Assembly: GCA_019635775.1 (NCBI GenBank)
Contig: JAHBYU010000001.1
Location: 124,001 to 188,000, forward strand
Source of the DNA: Rhizobiaceae bacterium
GTDB lineage: Bacteria; Pseudomonadota; Alphaproteobacteria; Rhizobiales; Rhizobiaceae
Reading direction: 5' to 3'
Length of the DNA: 64,000 bases
Shown here: positions 63,354 to 64,000 of the stretch, in pieces
Layout: each line of letters begins with the position of its first letter
How positions within the stretch are numbered: position 1 is the stretch's first letter
The notes under the pieces: model-generated
Seen by the model: the letters and a program-made list of their open reading frames with translations, nothing else
What the model was told of the DNA's origin: nothing
Databases searched by the model: none
Translations under genes and position numbers: made by a program

Positions 63354-63638
63354 ATGAGCACGATCACGGAAAACACGGTGCTTGCATTCCGGCAAGTCGC
63401 CAGCATGCAACCCGTTGCCGATGGGGCGGTTATCCTGCTTGCCGACAGTGGCCAGCTCTATACGGGCAACGGAACGACCGAGGCGATCCTGCGACATGTC
63501 GACGGGAAACGCCGCATCAGCGATCTGGCGACCGCGCTCTGCTCGGAATTCGACATCGACCCGGAGGCGGCAACCGCCGATGTCATCGAGATTGCCGGAA
63601 CGCTGATCGATGAAGGCGTGCTTGATGTCGTCGGATAG
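63354..63638 (+). CDS. PqqD-family RiPP recognition protein
   Basis: A 94-residue protein with AAGGAG eight bases before the ATG at 63354. The sequence follows the PqqD/RRE pattern end to end: a beta hairpin (ADGAVILLADSGQLYTGNGTTEAIL), RHVDGKRRISDLATALCSEF with the helix-turn part, and a final EIAGTLIDEGVLDVVG. RRE domains hold the leader peptide of a RiPP precursor for the modifying enzyme. The next gene encodes a transglutaminase-like B2 protein. The precursor gene and other partners must lie beyond the right edge, if present. Confidence 0.88.
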   Translation: MSTITENTVLAFRQVASMQPVADGAVILLADSGQLYTGNGTTEAILRHVDGKRRISDLATALCSEFDIDPEAATADVIEIAGTLIDEGVLDVVG

Positions 63639-63746
63639 GCACGCAGCGACAAAGCGCTTCGGGCTCCTGTGGTGGGATGCGCGCCGTCCATGCGTTCACT
63701 GACGCATTCCGATCATGCGAAGGCCAACAAGGAGGACAGGCCCGCC

Positions 63747-64000
63747 GTGTTGACCCGCCTCCTGTTCCGTGCGGAAGTCTGGCTGCGCGCCAGGCTGCTG
63801 CCGCTCCAGATCAGGGGACGATCGCTGAGAGAGATGCTTGAACTCGCCGAACCGCCTTTGGGAGGGTCGCGTCGCGAAGGCGTATCCGCAGCCTTTGTCG
63901 TGCGGACGGTGCGACGCGTCACGAGGCACCCCTGGGTCATGCGTGACCGGCGCTGCCTGCGCGAGGGCCTCCTGGCTTATCGTCTGCTGGCGGAGACGGG
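63747..64000 (+). CDS. Transglutaminase-like lasso B2-type protein (3' end cut by window)
   Basis: At least 84 residues are readable. I favour the GTG at 63747 because AAGGAGG lies 11 bases upstream; an in-frame ATG at 63690 is possible. LTRLLFRAEVWLRARLLPLQ resembles the helical N-terminus of lasso-peptide B2 proteins. VVRTVRRVTRHPWVMRDRRCLREGLLAYRLL is the catalytic-Cys region of the Transglut_core3 family (RxCLxxxLxxxxLL pattern). The His and Asp of the triad should lie beyond the edge. B2 proteins cut leader peptides after an RRE delivers them. It begins 108 bases after the PqqD-like stop. Confidence 0.72.
   Translation, partial: MLTRLLFRAEVWLRARLLPLQIRGRSLREMLELAEPPLGGSRREGVSAAFVVRTVRRVTRHPWVMRDRRCLREGLLAYRLLAET

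Follow-up and report, generated by a model that had tools for sequence, protein, structure and literature searches.

A cyclase-less locus with lasso-type peptide maturation genes in a Rhizobiaceae genome, and its relatives among Alphaproteobacteria

What kind of peptide is matured by a leader-binding protein and a leader peptidase of lasso type that stand together at a locus where no lasso cyclase is apparent? This question was raised by two genes at the right edge of the window, the 64,000-nucleotide stretch of a Rhizobiaceae bacterium genome analysed here (assembly GCA_019635775.1, contig JAHBYU010000001.1, positions 124,001 to 188,000), which the first-pass annotation had read as a truncated PqqD and B2 pair of a RiPP maturation locus, possibly of a non-lasso kind.

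63354..63638, + strand: PqqD-family discrete RRE, leader-binding, 94 aa, ATG start (PF05402, E=1.5e-11)
63669..64166 (in the window 63669..64000), + strand: B2 leader peptidase, Transglut_core3 (NF033537, 58.4 bits), Cys and His conserved

The pair is real. The PqqD protein scores 44.9 bits against PF05402, above the cut-off, and is the only match of the whole genome to this family at E<=0.001; the B2 protein matches NF033537 (E=9.5e-16, for a cut-off of 33 bits), which NCBIfam names as a lasso enzyme (lasso_biosyn_B2), as well as Transglut_core3 (E=1.9e-13). The truncation holds for the window only: read from a GTG at 63669, whose use as start codon is uncertain, the B2 ORF extends 166 bases beyond the window end and is complete to 64166 on the contig. 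Across the 25 B2 rows of the cyclase-less family described below, the Cys (in R-x-C-[LF]-R) and the His (in HCW) never vary, whereas a fixed third acidic residue is seen neither there nor in 15 further B2 rows drawn from this order. The active-His motif is HCW throughout the 25 family rows, compared with 13 HAW, 1 HLW and 1 HCW among the 15 others. The sugar importer genes upstream of PqqD look unrelated to the locus.

Continuing the window on the same contig (window position = position in our stretch L002 + 60000) brought to light an HPr-kinase-like gene, a nucleotidyltransferase gene and ten precursor genes, among the signs that the annotation had proposed to look for past 64000, and neither a cyclase nor an exporter in the cluster.

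64163-65146, + strand: HprK-like kinase, overlapping B2
65224-65316, - strand: precursor 1, core SNGSPTPDR
65395-65508, - strand: precursor 2, core QTSGTTEINGQQQSGT
65595-65684, - strand: precursor 3, core INVGTEVR
65763-65870, - strand: precursor 4, core GGGSAPGGDGPKAG
66093-66197, - strand: precursor 5, core GTGGTAPDISAGG
66283-66390, - strand: precursor 6, core TGGASAPETGQKNPF, leader without the x before Tyr
66475-66576, - strand: precursor 7, core GPGGTEPDIRPQ
66673-66771, - strand: precursor 8, core GNGSPPPATVT
66837-66938, - strand: precursor 9, core NGNGTPPEIDPG
67004-67102, - strand: precursor 10, core GNGSPPPATVP
67257-68663, + strand: ANL acyl-adenylating ligase (PF00501, E=4.6e-46)
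about 68663-69235, + strand: GNAT (PF13302, E=2.4e-12)
69476-70465, + strand: NTP_transf_5 nucleotidyltransferase (PF14907, E=3.5e-19)

The locus is a real, complete, cyclase-less RiPP cluster, and the reading as a possibly non-lasso maturation locus is borne out by the kinase, the nucleotidyltransferase, the ten precursors and the genome's want of a cyclase. In the NTP_transf_5 protein the D-x-D and E are invariant, and the GNAT has weak matches to ribosomal-protein-alanine and spermidine acetyltransferases. The nearest solved relatives of the ANL ligase are oxalate-CoA ligases (E 1.7e-49), together with fatty-acid-CoA ligases, which does not fix its substrate. No PqqA precursor or other pqq enzyme was found among the cluster genes scanned, and no SipW-like SpI leader peptidase among the six cluster proteins scanned, B2 being present instead. 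The nucleotidyltransferase gene is followed by an RpiR-type regulator and further genes of no apparent relation to the cluster. The stretch that runs from PqqD to the nucleotidyltransferase yielded no exporter; the closest one of ABC type that was noted, at L002 17593, belongs to the LssB class of type I secretion. It lies in a group (L002 13700-19785) that encodes a CHASE2 adenylate cyclase, a TolC-like protein and the LssB-type secretion ATPase, and that gives no sign of serving the peptides of this cluster.

The ten precursors are 29-37 aa long, with predicted cores of 8-16 aa behind a leader of the pattern [MV]-[KR]-K-x-Y-x-[KR]-P-x-[LIF]-x(2)-R-[ED]-K-L-S-x-V-[TA]-A. Among them, pN/pS is 0.23 in the leaders and 0.84 in the cores, against 1.35 and 1.61 in the shifted frames of the same strand; the antisense frames of the leader block give 1.42, 0.31 and 1.46, the low value falling, as is to be expected, in the frame where third positions coincide. 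Judged by these substitution patterns, the leaders are under purifying selection. By eye, GAG is present in nine of the ten 22-base stretches upstream of the precursors. The plus-strand ORFs (115-199 aa) over the array or its end had no Pfam match at E<=0.01 (best 0.052, far below the cut-off), and were taken as by-products rather than genes.

A genome-wide search with PF00733 at E<=0.001 did not turn up a lasso cyclase, since the two places that match this family encode an AsnB-like protein (591 aa) and an MnmA-like protein. The AsnB-like gene is followed by a GNAT/ATP-grasp gene (L019 2661-6212), a pair which we take to be asnO-ngg, of N-acetylglutaminylglutamine amide osmolyte synthesis.

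Is this arrangement peculiar to one genome? The ANL ligase was found in 4 of 101 genomes at E<=1e-60, its own included, and the kinase in 5 of 101 at E<=1e-10. A kinase-alignment scan of named genomes returned nine loci, belonging to the strains Oricola indica JL-62 and Hoeflea marina DSM 16791 and to MAGs assigned to Rhizobiales bacterium 65-79, Hyphomicrobiales, Rhodobacteraceae (two), Alphaproteobacteria, Notoacmeibacter and Mesorhizobium. Among 385 genomes of the class, the kinase search retained the own genome alone at E<=1e-15, which is no gauge of rarity because no more than 5 candidates per genome were scored; the same limit applies to a like search with no more than 4. A B2 search of 397 genomes of the order gave 32 places in 26 genomes, 13 of them with a PF00733 match within 4 kb and 17 belonging to the cyclase-less family, including one in G575 whose neighbouring lasso locus has its cyclase gene 9.4 kb away. 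Two others (G518:C3 and G772:C1) fall outside the family and have no PF00733 match within 10 kb; among B2 places of this kind, L072 holds B2 alone among the profiles used, and L076 an RRE with a weakly matching HprK. In five genomes of genus g374 (G510, G545, G575, G648 and G668; L077-L083, L098, L099) a lasso locus is accompanied by a cyclase-less one at a distance of about 12-29 kb. In all, counting each locus once (non-redundant), 26 cyclase-less loci were gathered in Alphaproteobacteria. Among them, the G001 locus is without B2, an HCW-type B2 being on another contig, and in G002 the RRE, B2, kinase and formyltransferase are on one contig and the nucleotidyltransferase, GNAT and ANL on another.

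The kinases set these loci apart from lasso loci. A profile built from 12 of the 26 loci scored all 26 family kinases at 209-450 bits (209-324 for the 14 held-out cyclase-less loci) and 12 lasso kinases at 17-40, with L072, L076 and L093 excluded from the comparison, and in a midpoint-rooted tree in which long branches were flagged, a single branch with support 100/99 parts the two groups. By sequence, the cyclase-less loci have a kinase and a B2 of their own family, distinct from those of lasso loci. The kinase motif is intact: HKDD (His-Lys-Asp-Asp), reported for lasso kinases in the accessible part of the source (PMC9266682), is present in 26/26 family kinases and in 12/12 lasso kinases. 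The family kinase profile finds HprK chains at E 8.8e-4, and for a model of the L021 kinase (pLDDT 90) the best match has an E of 1.3e-9, the best 50 matches listed all being PEPCKs, which share the HprK fold. A nucleotidyltransferase model (pLDDT 84) had no PDB match at E<=0.001; MenT1 and ANT(2''), then more weakly FKRP, come nearest, matches too weak for us to name the donor.

A common pattern emerges from the precursors, which were found in 18 of the 26 loci (not in L016, L025, L029, L077, L079, L080, L090 and L094) and share a YxKP leader. Over the 48 cores gathered from 17 loci, of 6-18 aa, Ser/Thr reaches a frequency of 0.58 at position 5 and at most 0.31 at the other positions from 1 to 10, and 44 cores carry it at positions 3-5, against 25.7 (sd 3.2) after shuffling. 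Several precursors are weak matches chosen by eye among chance matches of similar score, and a strict set of 39 cores from 13 loci was defined by removing nine: four L038, two L095, the L082 and L083 cores (weak matches) and the L091 core, found with a pattern requiring SG, TG or SS. There, Ser/Thr occurs at positions 3-5 in 35/39 cores against 21.1 (sd 2.9), none of 5000 shufflings being as high, and [ST]G within positions 2-8 in 20/39 against 7.1 (sd 2.3). Minus the own locus the former count is 25/29 against 16.2 (sd 2.5; 2/5000), and with one core per locus 10.6/13 against 6.4 (sd 1.7), figures to be read knowing that the windows were picked after viewing the cores and that cores of paralogous precursors do not count as independent. 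The core counts exclude two precursor-like ORFs of L097, whose leader differs. In L096 (7856-8251, - strand), a precursor-like protein of 131 aa joins the common leader and a short core to a Peptidase_S74 domain (PF13884, chaperone-of-endosialidase, E=2.2e-8).

We consider it somewhat probable that the locus is a RiPP cluster akin to the machinery of phosphorylated lasso peptides but working without a cyclase, through leader-guided phosphorylation, modification of the phosphate, release by B2 and capping of the N-terminus. Beyond what the sequences display directly (the gene set, the missing cyclase, the leader selection, the position of the Ser/Thr and the intact kinase motif), the chemistry and the leader cleavage site would be as follows. 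By analogy with lasso systems, the PqqD/RRE would bind the Y-x-[KR]-P leader of each of the ten precursors. The kinase, in the manner of lasso and LPP kinases, would then phosphorylate the conserved Ser/Thr near core position 5, and the NTP_transf_5 enzyme would, like PsmN, add a nucleotide or a sugar to the core phosphate. B2 would cut after V-[TA]-A, as in lasso maturation, freeing a linear core of 8-16 residues. Finally, and this is the step of which we are least sure, the ANL ligase would form an acyl-CoA or acyl-AMP from which the GNAT would move the acyl group to the new N-terminus; the formyltransferase of other loci could cap the same amine exposed by B2. The roles of the Ser/Thr as phosphoacceptor and of the nucleotidyltransferase on the phosphate are drawn from LPPs and PsmN. 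In the accessible parts of the sources, LppK phosphorylates S3 of a linear core, several phosphates being added, and did not accept S3T, deletion of lppN, encoding the NTP transferase LppN, caused no change in the host used (PMC13381572), and PsmN adds a hexose to the phosphorylated lasso peptide pseudomycoidin (PMC8498205, PMC9266682). It counts against the proposed scheme that the conserved site is occupied by Thr, not Ser, in four or five of the ten cores at this locus, and that the cluster has no exporter.

In another reading, phosphorylation followed by nucleotidylation or glycosylation would be all that happens to the peptide, and the ANL and GNAT would be neighbours that belong to another pathway. 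ANL and GNAT were found in 8 of the 26 loci (seven within the locus, one across two contigs) and a formyltransferase in 6; in the DNA fetched, 12 loci have one or the other and 14 neither, so that capping would not be universal. Both occur together in L038, as one locus, and in the genome G002, on its two contigs. The ANL adjoins the GNAT in 8/8 family loci that have them, and such pairs also stand in stretches without an RRE, B2, HprK or nucleotidyltransferase match (L039, L040 and L041, in G806, G565 and G498), which together fits a module; in G806 a cyclase-less locus lies about 130 kb from the lone pair on the same contig. These lone pairs and the 14 loci where neither was found speak for the reading without capping, and the GNAT may act on something other than the peptide. 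Against it, seven loci have the pair inside the cluster although their gene orders differ, and the ANL and formyltransferase genes of L038 flank four precursors; we regard this reading as unlikely. The ANL-profile matches of about 700 aa (L077, L079, L080, L082, L083) and about 1180 aa (L090-L092, L094), and that of L088, were not counted, since from their N-termini and neighbours they look like unrelated acyl-CoA synthetases or Aas-like genes; the L096 match (E=1.5e-41) was not counted either.

Could the ANL ligase instead replace the lasso cyclase, adenylating the C-terminus or an Asp/Glu side chain around core position 8 to close a macrolactam or ester ring? The genome has no Asn-synthetase cyclase, the gene of an ATP-dependent acyl-activating enzyme stands beside the precursors, and Asp/Glu occurs at positions 7-9 in seven of the ten own cores, five times at position 8. 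However, two own cores are without any Asp/Glu, only 5 of the 38 cores from other loci have it at 7-9, this type of ANL was not found in 18 of the 26 cyclase-less loci and adjoins a GNAT wherever present, and its best solved relatives are CoA ligases. As the relatives' cores mostly lack Asp/Glu and the Ser/Thr signal emerged, this explanation was dropped as the lead, and we now consider it quite improbable, although the Asp/Glu in seven of the own cores makes it slightly more likely, and the leading reading slightly less so. A lasso system whose cyclase is located elsewhere or was lost recently would account for the lasso-type RRE, B2 and leader, and for the five g374 genomes that pair both kinds of locus. 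A lasso core is long enough for ring and tail and has Asp/Glu at 7-9; over the 48 cores, Asp/Glu is at 7-9 in 12, and 26 are of 10 aa or less, too short for a lasso ring and a threaded tail. With the kinase and B2 falling outside the lasso families and the own genome without a cyclase match, we find this explanation very hard to sustain. Nor does a decayed remnant without product, for which a patchy distribution and the absence of B2 and kinase from one of the four genomes of the host genus could be quoted, agree with intact frames, catalytic motifs and a leader pN/pS of 0.23, and it is most improbable.

Among known systems, the gene content has two neighbours. The RRE (B1) and the B2 peptidase are lasso features, and the RRE, HprK-like kinase and NTP transferase without a cyclase are the gene set of LPPs. 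As far as the accessible part of their description goes (Bacillota, lpp, PMC13381572), LPPs likewise combine a discrete RRE, an HprK-like kinase and an NTP transferase with no macrolactam cyclase, have a YxxP leader and a phosphorylatable residue near the core start, and often share a genome with a lasso locus (paeninodin clusters in Bacilli). According to the same source they have a SipW-like signal peptidase, where this locus has B2, an MsbA-like exporter, for which no counterpart was found in this cluster, and between one and three precursors, 35-200 aa long, as against up to ten here, with cores of 6-18 aa; it states that they are restricted to Bacillota, whereas the cyclase-less B2 family is hosted by Alphaproteobacteria and often adds ANL and GNAT or a formyltransferase. 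Phosphorylated lasso peptides (paeninodin, pseudomycoidin, SyanK type) resemble the family in RRE, B2, HprK (HKDD) and nucleotidyltransferase, and in a [Y/W]xxP leader, often with a penultimate Thr, but differ in having a cyclase and a C-terminal Ser, in place of the early core Ser/Thr seen here, and many family cores are too short to thread. Selidamides and lipolanthines, and nostolysamides as listed in the literature searched, are fatty-acylated RiPPs; a GNAT stands in the clusters of the first two, and all three are lanthipeptides or members of further classes that rely on different maturation enzymes. No set of ANL ligase, B2 and HprK was found described in the literature searched, and in the same literature (titles and abstract starts, most subscription journals being outside its scope) no alphaproteobacterial cyclase-less B2 system is named.

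From the sequence comparisons, the closest known kind would be the LPPs of Bacillota, the family appearing as their B2-dependent alphaproteobacterial counterpart, about half of whose loci add a module for acyl or formyl transfer. We further put forward, tentatively and as somewhat short of probable, a separate alphaproteobacterial RiPP class of N-acyl- or N-formyl-capped, phospho- or phosphoglyco-modified linear 6-18-mers, encoded in tandem arrays with one leader and varied cores, the ANL-GNAT pair giving the acyl cap. According to the accessible text of the RRE-Finder study (PMC7470986), of almost 8,000 discrete RREs of lasso type, only about 4,000 are accompanied by the peptidase and cyclase, and the RREs of one network region are called possible false positives. 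If our reading is true, part of the lasso-type RREs without peptidase and cyclase may belong to a linear phosphopeptide class outside Bacillota, whose small precursors would be easy to test in E. coli.
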